A model generated the notes under the pieces. The model was not told the DNA's origin. It searched no databases and saw only the letters and a program-made list of their open reading frames with translations. The position numbers and the translations under genes were made by a program. A DNA stretch of 64,000 nt from Haloferax marinum (GTDB lineage Archaea > Halobacteriota > Halobacteria > Halobacteriales > Haloferacaceae), in NCBI RefSeq assembly GCF_009674625.1, contig NZ_WKJQ01000001.1, forward strand, positions 682,001 through 746,000, in the 5' to 3' direction. How positions within the stretch are numbered: the first letter of the stretch is position 1; each line of letters begins with the position of its first letter. This document shows, in pieces, positions 15,543-61,308 of the stretch.

Positions 15543-15848
15543 TTAACTCTCGATTTCTGCAGCTTCTTCGATCTTCATCGATTCGAGCTTGGTGACAATC
15601 TCGTCGAGCTTTCCGTCGAGTTCGTCGACGAACTCGTCGGTTCGCTCGGTCTTGATTGCGCCTTGGCTGGAGGGCTCGATAAGGTTCTCTTCTTCGAGAA
15701 CGCGAAGCGAGTACCGTACCTTGTGGTGTGGGTAGCCAGTTTCGTTCGACATCTTGACGATGCCGATTGGCTCGTTATCGATAACCATCTTCAGAACCTG
15801 GAGATGGCGCTCCAACATATCGACTTCTTTCTCAAGTCGGTCTATCAT
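15543..15848 (-). CDS. Winged-helix transcriptional regulator
   Basis: A 101-residue regulator. An N-terminal helix (MIDRLEKEVDMLERHLQVLKMV) leads into a winged helix-turn-helix (IVKMSNETGYPHHKVRYSLRVLEEENLIEPSSQGA), then a C-terminal amphipathic helix with heptad pattern likely used for dimers. I choose ATG 15848 rather than 15917 because a TATA-like CTTTAA sits at 15875-15880, matching a leaderless start. It stands alone between the coiled-coil gene and purA, which faces away; a role in regulating either neighbour is possible but unproven. Confidence 0.75.
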   Translation of the reverse strand: MIDRLEKEVDMLERHLQVLKMVIDNEPIGIVKMSNETGYPHHKVRYSLRVLEEENLIEPSSQGAIKTERTDEFVDELDGKLDEIVTKLESMKIEEAAEIES

Positions 15849-16016
15849 GCCATTTGTTAACTCTTCTTGGGAGGCTTTAAGCCTTGCCCTCTTCGGTGGC
15901 GAATAATAAGATGACACGGCCGTACTACGGCCAGATGCGATACCATTGCGTTCCCACGGACACTAATTAACGGTTGTGTTATCCATCGGCATGGAGATGC
16001 GAGTTCGTGACGGAAT

Positions 16017-16056
16017 CGAACTCTGGTTCGTGTGAAGTATACACGAACGTGTATTT
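16017..16056 (+). promoter_or_regulatory. Candidate purine operator upstream of purA
   Basis: Two adjacent palindromes precede purA. CGAAC-TCTG-GTTCG covers 16017-16030, and ATACAC-GAAC-GTGTAT lies within 16036-16056. The second closely matches, 20 of 23 bases, a palindrome in the divergent purNH/purB control region (57696-57718, reverse strand). Consensus GTATACAMGAACGWGTAT. It ends about 20 bp before the purA TATA-like box (GTTTAG, near 16080), a suitable place for an activator or repressor. Confidence 0.5.
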
Positions 16057-16109
16057 GTTCGAGAGCAGTACCGTAATGTGTTTAGTGCGTCGCGGGGAAC
16101 GGCCGACGT

Positions 16110-17447
16110 ATGACTGTTACCATCGTCGGTTCGCAACTCGGCGACGAGGGCAAAGGTGCGCTCGTCGACCTGTGGGGCGGCGACGCTGACGTCGTCGTCC
16201 GATATCAGGGCGGCGACAACGCCGGCCACACCGTCGTCGAAGACGGCGAAGAGTACAAATTATCGCTCGTCCCGAGTGGGGCCGTCCGCGACAAAGTGGG
16301 CGTGCTCGGCAACGGCTGTGTCATCAACCCGCGGACGCTCTTCTCCGAAATCGACGCCCTCCGCGAGCGCGGCCTCGAGCCCGACGTGCGTCTGGCGAAG
16401 CGCGCGCACGTCATCATGCCGTACCACCGCCGTCTCGACAACATCGAAGAGGAAGCGAAGGCAGACTCCGACGAAGACCTCGTCGTCGGCACGACCGGCC
16501 GCGGTATCGGCCCGACCTACGAGGATAAAGCCGGCCGTCGCGGTATTCGCGTCGGTGACCTCCTGGACCCCGAAATACTCCGGAAGCGACTCGAATACGT
16601 CGTCCCGCAGAAGAAAGCACTCATCGAGGACGTCTACGGACTCGAAGCCGGTGAGGAGTGCGACATCGACGCGCTCGTCGAGGAGTTCACCGAGTTCGGC
16701 CGCCGACTCCGCGAAGACGACATGGCCATCAACTGTGGTGACTTCCTCGCAGAACGGCGCGAAGCGGGCGAGAACGTGATGTTCGAGGGCGCACAGGGGA
16801 CGCTCATCGACATCGACCACGGGAGCTACCCGTACGTGACCTCCTCCAACCCGACTGCTGGCGGTGCGGCCACCGGGAGCGGTGTCGGACCGACCGTCGT
16901 CGGCCAGGGTGAAGTCGTCGGCATCGTCAAAGCGTATCTCTCTCGTGTCGGCGAGGGACCGATGCCGACCGAACTGAAGAACGACGAACGCGACGAAGAA
17001 CTCGCAGACTTCATCCGCGAGAAGGGTGGCGAGTTCGGAACCGTCACCGGTCGCCCACGCCGTATCGGATGGCTCGACATGCCGATGCTCCGCCACGCCG
17101 CCCGCGTCAGCGGATTCACCGGAATCGCCGTCAACCACCTCGACGTGCTCGCCGGCCTCGACGAAATCAAGGTCGGTCACGCCTACGAACTCGAGGGCGA
17201 CGAGCGACTCACCATGCCCGCGACCACCGAGCGCTGGGACGAGTGTGAACCCATCCTCAAGGAGTTCGACACGTGGCCGGAAGTCGACTGGACCGAAGTC
17301 GCAGAAGAGGGCTACGACGCCATCCCAGACGCCGCCCAGGACTACCTCGAGTATCTCTCCGACGAACTCGACGTCCCCGTCTACGCCGTCGGTGTCGGCC
17401 CAGACCGCGCACAGACCGTCCACCTCGCGAACCCGTTCGACCAGTAA
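16110..17447 (+). CDS. purA: Adenylosuccinate synthetase
   Basis: GTP-dependent enzyme of 445 residues that joins aspartate to IMP to form adenylosuccinate, the first step from IMP to AMP. Motifs are classic: the glycine-rich loop GSQLGDEGKG (residues 7-16), GDNAGHTV, GTTGRGIGPTYEDK, EGAQGTLIDIDHGSYPYVTSSN, and the GTP/guanine region AVGVGPDR near the end. Length fits the family. It is monocistronic, with a palindromic motif shared with the purNH/purB promoter region upstream; PurB, the next enzyme, is encoded at 57835. Confidence 0.96.
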   Translation: MTVTIVGSQLGDEGKGALVDLWGGDADVVVRYQGGDNAGHTVVEDGEEYKLSLVPSGAVRDKVGVLGNGCVINPRTLFSEIDALRERGLEPDVRLAKRAHVIMPYHRRLDNIEEEAKADSDEDLVVGTTGRGIGPTYEDKAGRRGIRVGDLLDPEILRKRLEYVVPQKKALIEDVYGLEAGEECDIDALVEEFTEFGRRLREDDMAINCGDFLAERREAGENVMFEGAQGTLIDIDHGSYPYVTSSNPTAGGAATGSGVGPTVVGQGEVVGIVKAYLSRVGEGPMPTELKNDERDEELADFIREKGGEFGTVTGRPRRIGWLDMPMLRHAARVSGFTGIAVNHLDVLAGLDEIKVGHAYELEGDERLTMPATTERWDECEPILKEFDTWPEVDWTEVAEEGYDAIPDAAQDYLEYLSDELDVPVYAVGVGPDRAQTVHLANPFDQ

Positions 17448-28999: not shown

Positions 29000-29641
29000 T
29001 TAGTCTTGAAGGATAGCACCCATCAGCTTCTTCTGGGCCATCGCGAGGTGCTCGGAGAACGTCGAGGTCGTGATGTCGAGTTCCGCCGCGACCTCGCCTT
29101 TGTTCGCCCGACGCGGGTGGTCGAAGTAGCCCATCTCGTGTGCTTTCTCCAGTACTTCGCGCTGACGGTCCGTGAGTTGGCCACGCTCGACCAACACGAG
29201 GTCACGCGACTCGTCTGACGACGACTGAAGCAGTCTGCTCACGTCGACAGTGTCTGCCGACCCGCGGAGCGACGAGACGACGTCTCGAAGCGTCTCGACG
29301 TTCGGTGCGTGGAACGTCAAGAACAGTGCGCCATCACGAGTCTGTACGTCTACCACTGGACAGTCGAACGCCTCGATTCGCTCGCACGGACAACCGATGT
29401 TACCTTCGCGTGCAAATCGATAGACTGTCCCGTCACCGTAGTCGAATAGCTGTTCCATCTCCTCGGTTACCCCGGCGTCGCTGTCGAAGACGAACTCCTC
29501 CGTGATGGACCCCTCGTCCGTGGTGTCCATGCTTCGAGACAGCGCGTATCCGGAATTGTCGTTCGTGGATACAGACGCGACGGGGCAGTTGTCTACGCCC
29601 GTCACCTTCAACTCTGCTCTGATGCCCGCTGCGCTCGTCAT
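29000..29641 (-). CDS. Bat-like HTH_10 transcriptional regulator
   Basis: A 213-residue regulator of the bacterioopsin-activator (Bat) type. The C-terminal HTH_10 domain is clear: QLTDRQREVLEKAHEMGYFDHPRRANKGEVAAELDITTSTFSEHLAMAQKKLM. The N-terminal 140 residues form a sensor-like region with Cys residues in DNCPVASVSTND and GNIGCPCERIEAFDCPVVD, so metal or redox sensing is possible. I start at ATG 29641 since the minus-strand TTTATATCA at 29667-29675 is a well-placed TATA box. It is divergent from the ArsR-like gene at 29819. Confidence 0.85.
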   Translation of the reverse strand: MTSAAGIRAELKVTGVDNCPVASVSTNDNSGYALSRSMDTTDEGSITEEFVFDSDAGVTEEMEQLFDYGDGTVYRFAREGNIGCPCERIEAFDCPVVDVQTRDGALFLTFHAPNVETLRDVVSSLRGSADTVDVSRLLQSSSDESRDLVLVERGQLTDRQREVLEKAHEMGYFDHPRRANKGEVAAELDITTSTFSEHLAMAQKKLMGAILQD

Positions 29642-52154: not shown

Positions 52155-54602
52155 CTACTCGCAGTCTTCGAACCGACTCGGGTCGCGCGACGCCAGCGCG
52201 ACGTTCACGGCCGCGACATTTTCGGGGACGTCGTGGACGCGGACGATATCTGCACCACGGTCGGCGGCGATGGCCGTCCCGGCGATGGTCGCCGCGAGGT
52301 TGTCTCCGGTCTGCTCGCCGACCAGCGAGAACATCGACTTGTGCGAGTGGCCGACGAGGATGGGACACCCGAGCGCCGACAACTCGTCCACACGGCCGAG
52401 CAGTTCGAAGTTCTCTGCCTTCGACTTCCCGAATCCGAGGCCGGGGTCGACGATGACGTTGTGACGCGGGATGCCCGCCTTCTCGGCGAGGAGGATTCGT
52501 TCTCCGAGTTCGTCGACGACGTCTTCGACCACGTCGTCGTAGTCGATTTCTTTGTCCGGAATCACCGGCGCGTCGATGCTGTGCATCACGATGACCGGCA
52601 CGTCGCGTTCGGCGGCGAGGAAGCGCATCTGCGGGTCTTCGAGGCCGGTCACGTCGTTGAGGATATCGGCACCGGCGTCGAGGGCCGCTTCGGCGACGGC
52701 GGCTTTTCGAGTATCGACCGAGACGAGTGTGTCGAGGTCTGCGAGTGCCTCGATGACCGGTGTGACGCGACGAATCTCCTCGTCGAGAGGGACCTCTTCT
52801 GCACCGGGGCGAGTGCTCTCGCCGCCCACGTCGATGATATCGACACCTGCTTCGACCATCGCCTGTGCCTGTGAGACGGCGGCGTCGACGTCGTAGAACT
52901 GGCCGCCGTCGTGGAAACTGTCCGGCGTGACGTTGAGAATCCCCATGACTGCGGTGCCGTCTTCCCAGGGGTAGCCGTGTGACTCTGCGTCGGCGTCGGG
53001 TTCGAGACTGCTTCGAATCTCGGTCGCGAGTTCCGGAAGCGCGTTCGGGCGGTCCGCCAGCGACGAGGTCAGTTTATCCAACTGCGCAACCGTCCCCATC
53101 ATGACGATATCGACGAGTTCGCCGCCGGAGTCGTGGCCAGAGACTGCGCACTCACCACCGATGGCGAGCAGTTCCTCCCGAATCGTCTGTGCTTGCCGTT
53201 TCTGCACTCGGGTGCGAATCGTCCGGTGGACGCCGCTTTTCGCACTCTCGGTATCCGACACTGGGACGTTGGCCCGTTCGAGCGTCGCCTGTGCGTCTGC
53301 AACCGTTCGGTTCGTCTTCGGAATCAGCGCTCTCGTCCACGTCGTCCGCGCTTCGGCGACGACGTAGAGCGACCCCACGACGAGGACGCAATCGTCGGCG
53401 TCGGCACGAGCGTGAGCGTCTGCCAACGCGGACGCGACCGCGCTCCCCGTCCGAACGTCGGGGATTCCCGCGTTCTCGAAGACTGCAGAGAGTATCTCCG
53501 GGTCTTCGGCCCGCGAGATGTCTGCGTGACAGGTGACGACCGACGCGACGTCCGGGAGTGCCTCGACCATCTCGTGGTGGTCTTTGTCGTGCATCGCGCC
53601 GTAGACGAGGTGTAAGTCGTCGTCGTCGAACTCGTCGAGGACGGTCGCGACCTGCCTGCAGGCGTCGGGGTTGTGCGCGCCGTCGAGGACGACCATCGGG
53701 TCGGTCGACATGACCTCGAACCGCCCCGGCCAGTGGGCGTTCCGCAGGCCGCGACGAATCGCCTCGGCAGAGATGTCGGGGAGGACCTGCCGAGCCAACG
53801 CGACGGCGATGCCGGCGTTTTGTGCTTGGTACGCGCCCAACAGTGGGATTCGAAGGTCGAGTTTGTCGTCGCCTGTGGCTACGGTGACGGCAGCCTCCTG
53901 ATGACTGACGCGGCCACCGTATGCAGTCCGAACGTCTGCGTCGGTGTCGGCACTGCCGACGGTCAGTACGTCGCCGACTTCGTCGCGGATGACGTCTAGT
54001 GCCTCGCCGGTCGCACCGGTTACGAGGGGGCCATCTTCCGGTGCGACGGCCGCTTTCGTCCGGGCGATTTCTTCGATGGTGTCGCCGAGGACTGCCGTGT
54101 GTTCGAGCGAGACGTTCGTGACGGCGCTCGCGACGGGAGAGACGGCGCTCGTCGCGTCGAGTTCGCCGCCCATCCCGACTTCGAGAACTGCGACGTCGAT
54201 GTCGGCCTCGGCGAAGTACCAGATGCCGAGTGCGGTCATCGTCTCGAAGAACGTCAGCGGTTCGCCCTCGGCAGCGCGTTCGACCAGATACGGTTTCGCT
54301 TCGTCTACGAATGCCGACAGCGCAGCTTTCGGAATCTTGCGCCCATCGACGCGGATGCGTTCGCGAACGTCGTCGAAGTGTGGCGACGTGTAGAGACCGA
54401 CGCGCAGACCCGCTTGGCGGAGCGTCGATTCGAGCATCCGGGCGGTGCTTCCTTTTCCGTTCGACCCTGCAACCTGCACGAACGACACGCCCTCGTGGGG
54501 GTCGCCGAGGTGAGAGAGTAACCGCTGAATCGACTCGGTCCCCGGCTTGACCTGAAATCGCCGGAGGTCGAAAAGGAAGTTCACCGCCTCGTGGTACTCC
54601 AT
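52155..54602 (-). CDS. folCP: Bifunctional dihydrofolate/folylpolyglutamate synthase - dihydropteroate synthase
   Basis: An 815-residue fusion for folate synthesis, known as FolCP in Haloferax. Residues 1-430 are FolC (Mur-ligase fold): P-loop AGSNGKGST at 45-53, LEVGMGGELDATS, and WPGRFEVM/DGAHNPDACRQV. Residues ~548-815 are FolP: GILNVTPDSF, DVGGESTRPGAEEV, DPGLGFGKSKAENF and HSHKSMF. Between them (~430-545) lies a linker domain (TNRTVADAQATLERANVPVS, IREELLAIGGECAVSGHDSGGELVDIVMMGTVAQLDKL) not part of either enzyme; it has an ACT-like or ferredoxin-like rhythm. The linkage would channel dihydropteroate to the glutamate-adding site. Confidence 0.93.
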   Translation of the reverse strand: MEYHEAVNFLFDLRRFQVKPGTESIQRLLSHLGDPHEGVSFVQVAGSNGKGSTARMLESTLRQAGLRVGLYTSPHFDDVRERIRVDGRKIPKAALSAFVDEAKPYLVERAAEGEPLTFFETMTALGIWYFAEADIDVAVLEVGMGGELDATSAVSPVASAVTNVSLEHTAVLGDTIEEIARTKAAVAPEDGPLVTGATGEALDVIRDEVGDVLTVGSADTDADVRTAYGGRVSHQEAAVTVATGDDKLDLRIPLLGAYQAQNAGIAVALARQVLPDISAEAIRRGLRNAHWPGRFEVMSTDPMVVLDGAHNPDACRQVATVLDEFDDDDLHLVYGAMHDKDHHEMVEALPDVASVVTCHADISRAEDPEILSAVFENAGIPDVRTGSAVASALADAHARADADDCVLVVGSLYVVAEARTTWTRALIPKTNRTVADAQATLERANVPVSDTESAKSGVHRTIRTRVQKRQAQTIREELLAIGGECAVSGHDSGGELVDIVMMGTVAQLDKLTSSLADRPNALPELATEIRSSLEPDADAESHGYPWEDGTAVMGILNVTPDSFHDGGQFYDVDAAVSQAQAMVEAGVDIIDVGGESTRPGAEEVPLDEEIRRVTPVIEALADLDTLVSVDTRKAAVAEAALDAGADILNDVTGLEDPQMRFLAAERDVPVIVMHSIDAPVIPDKEIDYDDVVEDVVDELGERILLAEKAGIPRHNVIVDPGLGFGKSKAENFELLGRVDELSALGCPILVGHSHKSMFSLVGEQTGDNLAATIAGTAIAADRGADIVRVHDVPENVAAVNVALASRDPSRFEDCE

Positions 54603-56032: not shown

Positions 56033-56084
56033 GTATCCGGGTTACACCCGGCTACGAGTTTCCGTCACTAATCGTGACGGAAAC
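56033..56084. terminator. Two tandem hairpins at the purNH 3' end
   Basis: CCGGGT-TAC-ACCCGG (56037-56051) and GTTTCCGTCAC-TAATC-GTGACGGAAAC (56058-56084, 11-bp perfect arms). The second covers the last codons and stop of purNH. No strong T-tract follows on either strand, so RNA-end protection or a weak terminator is as likely as true termination. Confidence 0.45.
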
Positions 56085-57645
56085 ACCGCTGTCCAGTGAA
56101 CACCATCGCAATCCCGCGCTCGTTGCAGGCGTCGATGACCTTGTCGTCGTTGACCGACCCGCCGGGCTGGATGACCGCCTCGATACCCGCGTCCGCCGCC
56201 TTCTCGACACCGTCCGGGAACGGGAAGAACGCGTCAGAAGCCATGACGGCACCTTGGGCGTCCTTGCCTTCGGCGTGTTCTTCGGCCTTCATCGCGGCGA
56301 GTTCGACGGCATCGACGCGGGAGACCTGTCCCATCCCGACACCGACCGTCTCGGTTCCTTTGGCGAAGAGAATACCGTTGGACTTCACGTGCTTGAGGAC
56401 CTTCCACGCGAAGAGCATCGTCTCTAACTGCTCGTCCGTTGGCTCTGTCTCGGTGACGATTTCCAGGTCGTCCAGCGTCGGTGTCCAGAGGTCGCGCTCT
56501 TGAACCAGTCGGCCACCGACGAGCGCCTTCTCGGTGTACGTCTCGGTGCGCTCACCGAGTTCGCCCACGTCCAGCACGCGGAGGTTCTTCTTTTCGGTGA
56601 GAACGTCGAGTGCGTCGTCGGTGTAGCCGGGCGCGACGACGACTTCCTTGAACGAGTCGATAATCAACTCTGCAGTCTCGGCGTCACACTCGCGGTTGAG
56701 GGCGACGATACCGCCGAAGGCGCTCATCGGGTCCGTCGCGAGCGCGTCGGCATAGGCCTCTGCGAGCGTGTCGGCCGTTGCACACCCGGCCGGGTTCGTG
56801 TGCTTGATGACCGCGGCCGCGGGTTCGTCGAACTCCTTGATGATGTTGAGCGCGCCGTCTGCGTCGTTGTAGTTGTTGTACGACAGACCCTTCGCACCCT
56901 CGTTGAGTTGGGCCGCGCCGACGACGGACGCCTCGTCACAGGTTTCGTCGACGTAGACGGCGGCGTCCTGGTGTGGGTTCTCGCCGTATCGAAGTGTGTC
57001 GTAGCGGTCTTCGGAGGTGACGCGACGCTCGGGGAGTCCAGCGTCTTCGTCGCCGTCGATGGTGACGCCGTCGTCGTCGACGGTGACTCGTCCTTCGGCG
57101 AACCAGCGGACTGCACGCGGGTAGGCCTTGAACTCGGCGTCGTAGAGGACGCGCGATTTCAGGTCGTCTTCGTCGTCGCCCTCGTAGACTGGGACGGCCT
57201 CTTGGGTGACGATTGGGCCGGCGTCGACTTCTTCGTCGACGACGTGGACCGTACACCCCGTCATCTTCACGCCGGCGTCGAGGACCTGCTCGTGGGCGTC
57301 CATTCCAGGGAATGCGGGGAGGAGCGACGGGTGGACGTTGAGCGTCGTCGGCGTCGCGTCGAGGAACGTCGAGGTGAGGACGCGCATGTAGCCATCCAGG
57401 CAGACGATGTCGAACTCGTACCCCGAGAGGGCGTCGAGGATGCGTTCTTCGTGCGACTCGCGCGACTCGTCGTCGCCACGTTCGACGACTTCTGTCGGGA
57501 TGTCGTGTTCCGACGCCCAGTCGAGAATCGGGGCGTCAGCGTGATTCGAGACGACGACGCCGAGTTCCGCCCCGCCGGGGGAGCGGTCGGCGATGTTGCG
57601 CAGGTTTCGTCCACGGTTGCTCGCGAGACCGGCGATGGTGACCAT
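56068..57645 (-). CDS. purNH: PurN-PurH fusion: GAR formyltransferase and AICAR formyltransferase
   Basis: A 525-residue fusion. Residues 1-200 are PurN-like: VTIAGLASNRGRNLRNI, LTSTFLDATPTTLNVHPSLLPAFPGMDAH with the catalytic Asn-His, and HVVDEEVDAGPIVTQ. Residues ~210-525 are the PurH formyltransferase domain: RYGENPHQDAAVY, AAVIKHTNPAGCA with the Lys-His pair, DPMSAFGGIVALN, QVSRVDAVELA, DAFFPFPDGVE and IQPGGSVND. The IMP cyclohydrolase half of bacterial PurH is missing; archaea use a separate PurO. Start ATG 57645 matches the PurN start. It is divergent from purB and shares its control region. Confidence 0.92.
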   Translation of the reverse strand: MVTIAGLASNRGRNLRNIADRSPGGAELGVVVSNHADAPILDWASEHDIPTEVVERGDDESRESHEERILDALSGYEFDIVCLDGYMRVLTSTFLDATPTTLNVHPSLLPAFPGMDAHEQVLDAGVKMTGCTVHVVDEEVDAGPIVTQEAVPVYEGDDEDDLKSRVLYDAEFKAYPRAVRWFAEGRVTVDDDGVTIDGDEDAGLPERRVTSEDRYDTLRYGENPHQDAAVYVDETCDEASVVGAAQLNEGAKGLSYNNYNDADGALNIIKEFDEPAAAVIKHTNPAGCATADTLAEAYADALATDPMSAFGGIVALNRECDAETAELIIDSFKEVVVAPGYTDDALDVLTEKKNLRVLDVGELGERTETYTEKALVGGRLVQERDLWTPTLDDLEIVTETEPTDEQLETMLFAWKVLKHVKSNGILFAKGTETVGVGMGQVSRVDAVELAAMKAEEHAEGKDAQGAVMASDAFFPFPDGVEKAADAGIEAVIQPGGSVNDDKVIDACNERGIAMVFTGQRCFRHD

Positions 57646-57695
57646 GTGGAGTGGGCGTACCGCGGGCCTCAAAGTGGTTGCGGTCTTCGCCACCG

Positions 57696-57718
57696 AGATA
57701 TACTCGTTCTTGTATACT
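57696..57718. promoter_or_regulatory. Candidate purine operator between purNH and purB
   Basis: On the reverse strand the site reads GTATACAAGAACGAGTAT with one more base matching on each side, against GTATACACGAACGTGTAT before purA. The centre is an imperfect palindrome (TATAC, 8 bp, GTATA on the plus strand). It sits about 50-70 bp upstream of purNH's start and about 85 bp upstream of the purB TATA box (GTTTAAC, 57804-57810), so it could act on both genes. Confidence 0.5.
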
Positions 57719-57834
57719 CTGGCGTGAGTGATGGGCGAGGGGCACACCACATATCCACACACTTGCTTATTTTTGGACTTTCGGACGGACGCGAACCCCC
57801 GGCGTTTAACCCATCCCACCGAGACGACTCAGTC

Positions 57835-59223
57835 ATGACCGACGCCGACCGGAACGACCCGCTGTACGCGGTGTCACCGCTCGACGGGCGTTACGCCTCT
57901 CGAACCGCACCACTCGCACCACACGTGAGTGAGGCCGCACTCATGCGTGCTCGCGTGCAGGTAGAAGCCGAATACCTCGTCGCACTCGCGGACCTCGATG
58001 CGACGCCGCTCGAACTCTCCGACGCCGAGCGTGCCGACCTGCGAGCGCTCTACGAGGAGTTCGATGCCGACGACGCCGCCCTCGTGAAACGCCTCGAAGT
58101 CGAAGGCGCAGCAGGCTACACCGCGACGAACCACGACGTGAAAGCCGTCGAGTACTTCATTCGCACCGAGACGGACGACTCCATCCACCCGTGGATTCAC
58201 TTCGGACTGACCTCCGAAGACGTGAACAACCTCGCACAGCGCCTGATGGTCGTCGGTGCCGTCGAGGACGTACTCGTCCCCGAACTCCGTGCGATGCGTG
58301 ACGAACTCGTCGCACTCGCACAGGAGTACCGAGACGTGCCGATGCTCGCACGCACCCACGGGCAACCCGCGACGCCGACGACGTTCGGAAAGGAGATGGC
58401 CGTCTACGCCTCCCGTCTCGGACGGGCGCTTGCTCGCGTGGAGGCGGCCACCGACGACCTCGCCGGCAAACTCGCCGGGGCGTCTGGCACCTACGCCGCA
58501 CACGTCGCCGCGTTCCCCGACGTGGACTGGCGCGCCTTCTCCCACGAGTTCGTCTCCTCGCTCGGCCTCGAACACGTGTCGCTCGCGACGCAGGTCAACC
58601 CCTGTGACGACCTCGCGGCGCTGTTCGACGCCTTCCGTGGTGCCAACAACGTCATCGTCGATATGGACCGCGACATGTGGCTCTACGTCTCGGACCGCTA
58701 TCTCGGCCAAGAGACCGTCGAGGGTGAGACCGGGTCCTCGACCATGCCGCACAAGGTCAACCCCATCGACTTCGAGAACTCCGAAGGAAACCTCTCGAAA
58801 GCGAACGCCGACCTGACGTTCCTCGCGGACTACGTCACCACCTCGCGCCTCCAGCGTGACCTCTCGGATTCGACGGTCAAGCGCAACATCGGTGCCGCGT
58901 TCGCCCACTGTCTCATCGGCTACAAGAAGACCCAGACCGGCCTCGGGAAGGTCGTCCCGAACGAACACGTCATGCGCGGAGAACTGGACGACACGCCGGC
59001 CATCATCGGTGAGGCCGTCCAGACGATTCTCCGCCGCGAAGGCGACACGCAGGCCTACGAGCGTGTGAAAGAACTCACTCGTGGCCGCGAAGTGACGCTC
59101 GAAGACTTCCACGACCTCTTTTCGGACCTCGACGTGAGCGAATCGACGCGAGACGAACTCCTCGCGTTGACCCCCGCGACGTACGTCGGTCTGGCGGACG
59201 AACTCGTCGACGACATCGACTAA
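57835..59223 (+). CDS. purB: Adenylosuccinate lyase
   Basis: A 462-residue lyase that splits adenylosuccinate and SAICAR, serving both the IMP route and AMP formation. Motifs: ARTHGQPATPTTFGKEMAVYASRL with the catalytic His, the fumarase-superfamily loop GSSTMPHKVNPIDFENSEGNL with the catalytic Ser, and QRDLSDSTVKRN. TATA-like GTTTAAC is about 26 nt upstream. The last 12 coding bases, stop and the 12 bases after it occur again 45 bp downstream. Confidence 0.95.
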   Translation: MTDADRNDPLYAVSPLDGRYASRTAPLAPHVSEAALMRARVQVEAEYLVALADLDATPLELSDAERADLRALYEEFDADDAALVKRLEVEGAAGYTATNHDVKAVEYFIRTETDDSIHPWIHFGLTSEDVNNLAQRLMVVGAVEDVLVPELRAMRDELVALAQEYRDVPMLARTHGQPATPTTFGKEMAVYASRLGRALARVEAATDDLAGKLAGASGTYAAHVAAFPDVDWRAFSHEFVSSLGLEHVSLATQVNPCDDLAALFDAFRGANNVIVDMDRDMWLYVSDRYLGQETVEGETGSSTMPHKVNPIDFENSEGNLSKANADLTFLADYVTTSRLQRDLSDSTVKRNIGAAFAHCLIGYKKTQTGLGKVVPNEHVMRGELDDTPAIIGEAVQTILRREGDTQAYERVKELTRGREVTLEDFHDLFSDLDVSESTRDELLALTPATYVGLADELVDDID

Positions 59224-59605: not shown

Positions 59606-60679
59606 ATGAAAGCAATCGTCGTCAAGCGAGGGGGAGACAAACCGGTCGTCATCGACAAACCACGACCGGAGCCTGAGTCGGGGGAGGCACTCGTCAGGAC
59701 GCTCCGTGTCGGTGTCGATGGAACCGACCACGAGGTCATCGCCGGCGGGCACGGCGGGTTCCCGGAAGGCGAAGACCACCTCGTCCTCGGCCACGAAGCA
59801 GTCGGTGTCGTCGTCGACCCCAACGACACCGAGTTAGAGGAAGGCGACGTCGTCGTCCCGACGGTTCGACGCCCCCCAGCGTCGGGGACGAACGAGTACT
59901 TCGAGAAGGGGCAACCGGATATGGCCCCGGAAGGGATGTACGCCGAACGTGGCATCGTCGGCGAACACGGCTTCATGTCCGACTTCTTCACGAGTCCAGA
60001 GGAGTACCTCGTCCGAATTCCACGCTCGCTGGCAGACCTCGGCTTCCTCATCGAACCGATCTCTATCACCGAGAAAGCCCGCGAACTGGCCTACGCGAGT
60101 CGGTCGACGTTCGACTGGAACCCGTCTTCTGCGCTCGTCCTCGGCAACGGCAGTCTCGGTCTCCTGACGCTGGCGATGCTGAAAGCCGACGACAAAGCCT
60201 ACGACGACCTCTACTGTCTCGGCCGGCGTGACCGGCCCGACCCGACTATCGACATCATCGAGAAACTGGGCGGAACGTACGTCGATTCCAGAGAGACACC
60301 GGTCGGCGAGATTCCAGACGTGTACGAGCACATGGACTTCATCTACGAAGCGACGGGCTTTCCGAAACACGCGATACAGTCGGCTCAGGCCCTCGCTCCG
60401 AACGGTGTCGCCGCGTTGCTGGGCGTCCCGAGCGATTGGGCGTTCGAAGTCGACGCCGGTGCGTTCCACCGCGAGATGGTCCTCCACAACAAGGCGCTCG
60501 TCGGGAGCGTCAACTCCCACGTGAAGCATTTCGAGGCGGCGACGGTGACGTTCACCAAACTCCCCCGGTGGTTCCTCCGTGACCTCGTCACCGGCGTCTA
60601 CCCACTTTCGGAGTTCGAAGAAGCATTCGACGACGACGACACCACTATAAAAACCGCCATCGAATTCAGTAGCGTATGA
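59606..60679 (+). CDS. gdh: Glucose 1-dehydrogenase
   Basis: A 357-residue zinc-dependent medium-chain dehydrogenase that oxidises glucose to gluconolactone in the semi-phosphorylative Entner-Doudoroff route. The zinc and substrate residues known from the Haloferax mediterranei enzyme fall at the same numbers: Asp38, His63, Glu64 and Glu150. The nucleotide fold is LVLGNGSLGLLTLAML, and RRDRPDPT suits NADP binding. Start ATG 59606 (MKAIVVKRGGDKP) matches the family; an upstream in-frame start at 59498 is not credible. The stop overlaps gfcR (ATGA). Confidence 0.96.
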   Translation: MKAIVVKRGGDKPVVIDKPRPEPESGEALVRTLRVGVDGTDHEVIAGGHGGFPEGEDHLVLGHEAVGVVVDPNDTELEEGDVVVPTVRRPPASGTNEYFEKGQPDMAPEGMYAERGIVGEHGFMSDFFTSPEEYLVRIPRSLADLGFLIEPISITEKARELAYASRSTFDWNPSSALVLGNGSLGLLTLAMLKADDKAYDDLYCLGRRDRPDPTIDIIEKLGGTYVDSRETPVGEIPDVYEHMDFIYEATGFPKHAIQSAQALAPNGVAALLGVPSDWAFEVDAGAFHREMVLHNKALVGSVNSHVKHFEAATVTFTKLPRWFLRDLVTGVYPLSEFEEAFDDDDTTIKTAIEFSSV

Positions 60680-61308
60680 AGAACGTCGACGACCTCATCG
60701 CCAGTGCGGCGGAGCTCGCGGACCGTGGTCTCTCGAAAGGGGAAATTGCCGACGAACTCAACGTCTCCCGCGAAACCGCCAGTTGGCTGGTCGACCGAAG
60801 TGGTGCCGCCACGAAACCCGAACCCGAACAGAAACCCGACGGCCCACACGACATCCACGTAGACTGGAACGCCATCGGAAGCGGCGGCAGACGCCTCACG
60901 TACATCGGGCGCGCACTCGCAGACCTCCTGACCGAGACCCACGACAGCGCCGACGTGACCATCGGAATCGAGAAAGCTGGCGTCCCACTTGCCACGAGCG
61001 TCTCCCGCGAACTCGAAACCTCGCTCGGTTCGTACTCCCCCGCGAAACACCAGTGGGACGAAGGCGACATCGAAGACCTCGGTGGCGGCTTCTCCCGCAA
61101 CTTCGCACCCGTCTCTGGGCAACGGTGCTTCATCGTCGACGACACGGTGACGAGCGGAACCACGCTCCGTGAGACGATCGAATCGATTCGTGCCGAAGGT
61201 GGCGAACCGCTCGCGTGCGTCGTCATCGTCGACAAACAGGGTGTCGACGAAATCGACGGCGTCCCCGTCTACTCGCTCATCAACGTCGTGCGCGTCGGCG
61301 AGAAGTAA
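60676..61308 (+). CDS. gfcR: GfcR: PRTase-like transcriptional regulator of sugar catabolism
   Basis: A 210-residue regulator formed by an N-terminal helix-turn-helix (LSKGEIADELNVSRETASWLVDRSG) and a type I phosphoribosyltransferase-like domain. The PRPP motif is CFIVDDTVTSGTTL (~151-164). GfcR in Haloferax volcanii activates genes for glucose and fructose breakdown; it is not a true orotate enzyme. ATGA overlap with gdh couples the two. Ligand likely a phosphorylated sugar; direct gdh control is plausible. Confidence 0.92.
   Translation: MKNVDDLIASAAELADRGLSKGEIADELNVSRETASWLVDRSGAATKPEPEQKPDGPHDIHVDWNAIGSGGRRLTYIGRALADLLTETHDSADVTIGIEKAGVPLATSVSRELETSLGSYSPAKHQWDEGDIEDLGGGFSRNFAPVSGQRCFIVDDTVTSGTTLRETIESIRAEGGEPLACVVIVDKQGVDEIDGVPVYSLINVVRVGEK

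Follow-up and report, generated by a model that had tools for sequence, protein, structure and literature searches.

The 64,000-nt stretch of the Haloferax marinum genome analysed here, referred to as the window, contains two 16-bp palindromic sites, one before purA and one between the divergent purNH and purB genes (Table 1), which are very probably operators of a purine regulon and most likely bound by a protein that combines an N-terminal HTH with a phosphoribosyltransferase (PRT) domain. The sites belong to an operator family with a defined set of targets and fixed positions before them, and the family co-occurs with the HTH-PRT gene.

The site before purA (dyad 1) reads ATACACG-AA-CGTGTAT, and the window dyad at 57700-57715 (dyad 2) reads ATACAAG-AA-CGAGTAT; the latter is an imperfect inverted repeat, with its 16-mer at the usual position of -70. 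These are the two top places of the window according to a hand-made dyad score, which was built from the consensus of relatives and is not a trained matrix, and none of eight mononucleotide shuffles contained a place as good as either. The original prediction, a palindromic motif shared by purA and purNH/purB, was right about the presence of both sites and about the three gene calls, which agree with curated models, but the identity amounts to 19 rather than 20 of 23 bases. Its pattern, which was derived from both sites, matched three places in the window with up to three mismatches, as compared to 0.06 expected in shuffles; the third match, at 29555-29572, has three mismatches. The distal dyad before purA is weak, scoring by hand below the 99% threshold; a dyad at equal spacing is clearer in loci L038-L041. 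The weak second dyad at purNH/purB is placed 53 bp away from dyad 2, towards purB within the divergent promoter. A core promoter like that of purA is also found in species which lack the dyad. A fused Mur-ligase and pterin-binding protein of the folate synthesis type is encoded at 52158-54602, a few kb from purNH/purB, and genes for glucose dehydrogenase and GfcR (59606-61308) are located downstream of purB.

Table 1. Features of the window, and the HTH-PRT gene of the same genome
Feature	Position	Strand	Remarks
Small CggR_N-like winged-helix protein	15543..15848	-	divergent from purA
Degenerate distal dyad before purA	15997..16012	+	exactly 42 bp upstream of dyad 1
Putative operator dyad 1	16039..16054	+	ATACACGAACGTGTAT; perfect 7+7 inverted repeat around AA; best-scoring 16-mer; distance from the start of the 16-mer to the purA ATG 71 bp, from its end to TATA-like TTTAGT 26 bp
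purA core promoter	16070..16088	+	BRE/TATA-like ACCGTAATGTGTTTAGTGC
purA, adenylosuccinate synthase	16110..17447	+	curated models
purNH, phosphoribosylglycinamide formyltransferase (purN) fused to AICAR transformylase domain	56068..57645	-	curated models
purNH core promoter	57667..57685	-	GACCGCAACCACTTTGAGG
Putative operator dyad 2, before purNH	57700..57715	-	ATACAAGAACGAGTAT read towards purNH; best-scoring 16-mer ATACTCGTTCTTGTAT
Weak second dyad	57753..57768	.	ATCCACACACTTGCTT; score 10.0
purB, adenylosuccinate lyase	57835..59223	+	divergent from purNH; curated models
GfcR (HTH + PRT, sugar regulator)	60676..61308	+	NF045507; near purB
HTH-PRT gene	G000:C1:1505421-1506131	-	own genome, outside the window; neighbours are pyrE and a gene for an azgA-type purine permease

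Scanning 392 genomes of the order (95 genera) with a strict pattern (ATRCACGNNCGTGYAT) identified 57 places in 50 genomes and 25 genera, as compared to none for the reversed pattern. Exact sites are located at purL (21), the purNH/purB intergenic region (9), purF (7), purS (5), folD (4), purA (2) and gcvPA (2); the other seven belong to azgA-type purine permeases (3), a xanthine-type NCS2 permease, purD, purO and locus L109. Since 56 of the 57 lie at purine or C1 genes, with none in the control, the predicted role as operator of a haloarchaeal purine regulon is supported: exact sites concentrate before purine genes in 25 of 95 genera. At locus L109 (G050:C3, 1448-1516), an exact dyad is accompanied by another at a distance of 53 bp, and no purine gene was recognised within 1.5 kb of them. 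The position of the 14-mer core is fixed for each gene, being -56 at purL (21/21), -88/-89 at folD, -65/-66 at purS, -75 to -89 at purF and -68/-69 at purNH in seven of nine cases; the remaining two are closer to purB, at -63/-65 from it.

The pattern with one mismatch occurred at 181 places versus 41 for the control in 117 genomes. Among 40 of these places, hand-picked from the matches listed, purine or C1 genes, now including purC and guaB, account for 29, and 11 are elsewhere. Target names were assigned by tblastn with reference proteins taken from those loci, leftover loci (7 exact and 19 one-mismatch) were inspected by eye, and one representative of most target classes was confirmed by HMM. 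For the azgA proteins of L144 and L122, no NCBIfam model gave a match at 1e-20, but they share 53-60% identity with that of L112, a member of the Pfam family Xan_ur_permease; the permease of L111 scored over the NCS2 model cut-off and slightly under the xanthine permease cut-off. The target list therefore covers many of the steps from PRPP to AMP and GMP as well as C1 supply and uptake. At L096, L098 and other purS loci, a divergently encoded protein with ACT and formyltransferase domains (PurU/PurN-like) shares the purS operator region. Chance similarity, or shared promoter ancestry without function, is an extremely improbable explanation of the dyads. Loose matches are indeed common, the pattern ATACNNGAACNNGTAT with two mismatches occurring at 54 forward places in the own genome versus 20 for the control and being largely background; the exact sites, however, stand against an empty control and all but one lie at one pathway, and there are genomes in which the purNH core promoter persists although the dyad has gone.

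The operator consensus is ATRCACG-NN-CGTGYAT, a 16-bp dyad with the half-site ATRCACG. In 43 purNH sites, taken at the offsets located in the purNH survey described below, information peaks at A1, T2, C4, C6 and G7 and in the mirror half, while the two central bases carry little; AA/TT is the most frequent centre (34 of 57 exact sites). The previously proposed 'CGAAC core' is thus not retained, as the centre varies and the conserved bases are the outer AT-C-CG and their mirror, and because the information sits in these outer bases, the supposed sequence likeness to the bacterial PurBox is not supported either. Each dyad is probably bound by a dimer. Secondary dyads are about 8-fold denser around 85 target promoters than farther away (0.0016 versus 0.0002 per position), at spacings of 42-43 bp (11 of 37), 52-53 bp (7), 61-64 bp (4) or elsewhere (15). 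The favoured spacings are near 4, 5 and 6 turns; since a simple periodicity scan peaked near 9.75, without a sharp peak at 10.5, binding of paired dyads on the same face of the DNA is a tentative suggestion.

The region before purNH was compared among 70 genomes (30 + 40) of the order, with the 99% shuffle level as threshold. The proximal dyad exceeded it in 40 genomes, its 16-mer starting at -70 from the protein-match start in 28 and at -72 to -82 in 12; the proximal range (-84 to -66) was fixed after inspection of the sites, and the identical threshold was applied to the distal range. A distal dyad, mostly 52-53 bp farther upstream, was over threshold in 33 genomes (33 of the 48 with the HTH-PRT gene); 43 of 70 genomes have at least one purNH dyad, proximal or distal. 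Before purA, the dyad reached a score of 9.5 in 16 of 32 haloarchaeal loci, at -70/-71 (once -74); a cyanobacterial match, L061, is excluded from these counts. It is present in Haloferax, Halogeometricum, Halegenticoccus, Halogranum, Halalkalirubrum and SHRA6, narrowly below 9.5 in Haloferax profundi (9.4), and below 9.5 in the sampled Halonotius, Haloplanus, Halobellus, Halohasta, Halococcus, Haloquadratum, Halapricum and four others, mostly MAGs. The conservation expected for both genes is therefore strong at purNH, a wide member of the regulon, but patchy at purA. A dyad-like site precedes purL at -57 in 14 genomes of the window's genus, with scores of at least 10.4 in six, 9.4 in seven and lower in one; the own-genome site is GGGCACGTTTGTGCAC (9.4), and that of purF is ATACAAGTTCGTGCAT. 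Loci L072, L076 and L078 (genomes G091, G083 and G020 of one genus without the HTH-PRT gene) have another dyad-like sequence about 60-80 bp before purNH, roughly G(C/T)GTG-N9-CA(C/T)AC, which may be where a replacement regulator binds.

The HTH-PRT protein emerged from a PRT-domain search of the own genome. It comprises 237 residues, with an N-terminal HTH followed by the PRT domain (PF00156, 3e-9), and scores 355.8 bits (cut-off 184) with the model NF006328/PRK08558, named 'adenine phosphoribosyltransferase'. Its second NCBIfam match is the Bacillus pur operon repressor (TIGR01743; 4e-13, 49 bits versus a cut-off of 258.7), and the Pur operon repressor is also its best PDB sequence match (5e-11). 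The PuR_N winged helix was absent from a Pfam scan at E 0.1, which besides PF00156 reported just HTH_31 and HTH_3, both below cut-off. The AlphaFold model (pLDDT 84, about 55 at residues 141-170; pTM 0.80) shows an all-helical N-terminus and a PRT fold. Foldseek returned OPRT, APRT and PurR as relatives (1e-8 to 1e-7, query TM about 0.5); PurR 1p4a was found at 3e-8 with an rmsd of 11 across the entire chain, so only the PRT part resembles PurR. A PRPP-loop-like segment, VLVVDDLIRSGET, shows little or no variation among 22 sequences and fits the role of an enzyme or a regulator. NF006328 is named after an enzyme, while both the genomic evidence and the HTH at the N-terminus point to a regulator; the protein may be both, an active enzyme besides a putative regulator.

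An azgA-type permease gene is located downstream of the HTH-PRT gene in 24 of 30 loci, with dyads between the two in many. The loci L122, L243, L244, L245 and L247, found by the motif only, represent the same HTH-PRT/azgA junction, and in L221 the HTH-PRT gene is about 550 bp from the motif; in the own genome, no strong dyad was found on the azgA side. Upstream of the HTH-PRT gene there are weaker dyads near -72/-75 and -22/-32, the latter over the TATA region, and the best own-promoter scores reach the 95% shuffle level in 21 of 30 loci. As these sites are weak, autoregulation is only suggested. The gene was present in 13 of 13 searched genomes of the window's genus. Of 100 genomes of the phylum searched with the family model, 14 gave matches over the cut-off, and every one of these belongs to the window's order; the same search also matched 13 of 14 control genomes, two of them over the cut-off. 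The sole match to the candidate in a plasmid collection was a distant Bacillus purR.

Among the 48 genomes with the HTH-PRT gene, 43 have the purNH dyad, as compared to none of the 22 without the gene. Weak HTH-PRT matches (G003, G013, G037 and G089) were scored as absent, and 16 of the 22 are at least 90% complete. Five genomes have the gene but no purNH dyad (G002, G060, G075, G109 and G115), and two of these, G075 and G109, carry the most diverged HTH-PRT copies (63-67% identity). Within these 70 genomes, three families (f4, f5 and f7) include genera with and without the gene, and all of their gene-less genomes are dyad-less. The purNH core promoter (CGCAA-N4-TTT or similar) was recognisable in 10 of 15 gene-less genomes, partly so in three and not in two; it is thus mainly the dyad that has been lost. 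When the 117 genomes searched with one mismatch were split, the 80 with the gene contained 163 motif versus 31 control places and the 37 without it 18 versus 10. Of all 392 genomes, 295 have the HTH-PRT gene, among them, as compared by hand, all 50 with an exact motif (genome-level Fisher P about 2e-7 to 3e-7, relatedness ignored); at the level of genera, 70 of 95 have the gene, and these include every one of the 25 in which an exact motif occurs (P 1e-4, relatedness ignored).

The HTH-PRT protein would thus, in all likelihood, be the protein that binds the dyad. Co-occurrence is a correlation and three candidate proteins were compared, so the dyad might be bound instead by another regulator whose gains and losses coincide with those of the HTH-PRT gene; this is unlikely, since a permease gene often preceded by the dyad adjoins the HTH-PRT gene, the sensor domain of the HTH-PRT protein is suited to purines, and the other HTH-PRT protein, GfcR, shows no such association. 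GfcR is of the same haloarchaeal HTH and PRT architecture but of a different family, and is encoded near purB, while TrmB has been linked to purine genes in Halobacterium (PMC3794607); that either binds the sites is nevertheless most improbable. A strong GfcR match is present in 35 of 43 dyad genomes (missing or weak in 8) as compared to 26 of 27 dyad-less genomes, a distribution which excludes it as regulator of the dyads. The TrmB motif given for Halobacterium salinarum, TACT-N7/8-GAGTA, differs by eye in spacing from both window sites, which do not match it, and the purine gene dynamics are described as TrmB-independent (PMC3794607). A regulatory role of the small winged-helix protein beside purA is very unlikely as well. 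It neighbours purA in 31 of 32 haloarchaeal loci (by tblastn; not found in L054), but its 18 compared sequences are near-identical irrespective of a purA dyad at the locus, 86 of 100 genomes from across the phylum contain it, including some far removed from the haloarchaea, and it shows no sensor domain; near-invariance and wide distribution led us to discard it. Clustering of neighbouring ORFs for a regulator yielded mostly antisense noise and no regulator.

The PurR of Bacillus recognises the PurBox consensus and has an N-terminal domain named PuR_N. Like the HTH-PRT candidate, PurR of Bacillus subtilis combines a PRT-type sensor with an N-terminal DNA-binding domain, and it binds two operator copies with one dimer each (PMC8789054); the haloarchaeal dyads likewise are often paired. 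Its targets include the pur operon, purA, guanine and hypoxanthine permeases and its own gene (PMC8789054), and the title of a reference therein adds folD and glyA (PMC8789054). The candidate differs in its helical, XRE-like HTH, in that no PuR_N was found, and in its score under the PurR cut-off; the operator ATRCACG-NN-CGTGYAT and the archaeal promoters are also unlike the Bacillus system. In addition, ppGpp is not expected in the haloarchaeal system. A regulon of purine synthesis and permease genes with paired operators, as is typical of PurR-like working, was found, and judged from sequence the HTH-PRT system appears to work like a PurR regulon but fails with respect to PurR cut-off, PuR_N and PurBox. 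The hint at PurR in the original prediction thus fails for the operator sequence, but holds in so far as the PRT domain of the leading candidate is of the PurR type.

In the proposed mechanism, the PRT domain likely senses a purine nucleotide, a nucleobase or PRPP. When purines are plentiful, the HTH-PRT protein would stay on the dyads and lower transcription of the genes for purine synthesis, C1 supply and permeases, perhaps also of its own gene; when purines fall, it would release them. We lean towards repression as the sign of control, with activation a serious contender. Purine genes of Halobacterium rise as adenosine and guanosine fall, via a factor other than TrmB (PMC3794607, PMC4540570), which favours a purine-dependent brake. 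The authors of the same papers infer that PRPP is low in a mutant whose purine genes are highly expressed (PMC3794607, PMC4540570), arguing against PRPP as a simple inducer, unlike in Bacillus.

Archaeal sites upstream of BRE/TATA often mean activation, and Lactococcus PurR activates purine synthesis genes. Possibly, then, the same HTH-PRT protein acts with the opposite sign and, under purine shortage, activates the synthesis genes through dyads upstream of BRE/TATA, repression being restricted to dyads that cover TATA or start (own gene, purO and some azgA). In the examples inspected, judged by eye, the dyads end upstream of BRE/TATA at purL, purNH, purA, purF, purS and folD, and also at purD, gcvPA, guaB and two azgA genes; the dyads of purO and of the L245 azgA gene overlap the start region. 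However, the purO dyad covers the start codon in 4/4 loci although the purO step neighbours the purNH step, which suits repression, and since the sites through which PurR represses in Bacillus are located just upstream of -35 (PMC8789054), upstream dyads do not exclude repression. With most dyads upstream of BRE/TATA and some over TATA or start, the geometry seems compatible with either sign.

Haloarchaeal purine operators or regulators of this kind were not found among the matches listed from the open-licence PMC library, nor did feast/famine regulators among the matches listed there have a bearing on the purine dyad. TrmB of Halobacterium salinarum is an archaeal regulator reported near purine genes, with a motif that differs from the dyad; its role in purine control was inferred by the authors to be indirect, and one of the two papers states that no PurR homologue is identifiable by sequence in Halobacterium (PMC3794607, PMC4540570). 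The HTH-PRT protein is thus a candidate answer to a published question, namely which regulator, other than TrmB, controls the purine genes of Halobacterium, and the present analysis supplies an operator sequence, an order-wide target list and one candidate gene, which an NCBI model names an enzyme. The Haloferax group has good genetic tools.

If the proposed role is true, a PRT domain would serve as purine sensor within eukaryote-like archaeal transcription, joined to a DNA-binding domain unlike that of PurR. We tentatively consider that archaea may have built a PurR of their own, separately from that of Bacillus, in which a salvage-type phosphoribosyltransferase combined with an HTH became the master regulator of purine metabolism. 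If so, the HTH-PRT protein, maybe still an active enzyme, would read the salvage substrate directly, and this archaeal PurR would govern purine synthesis, C1 supply, uptake and itself.
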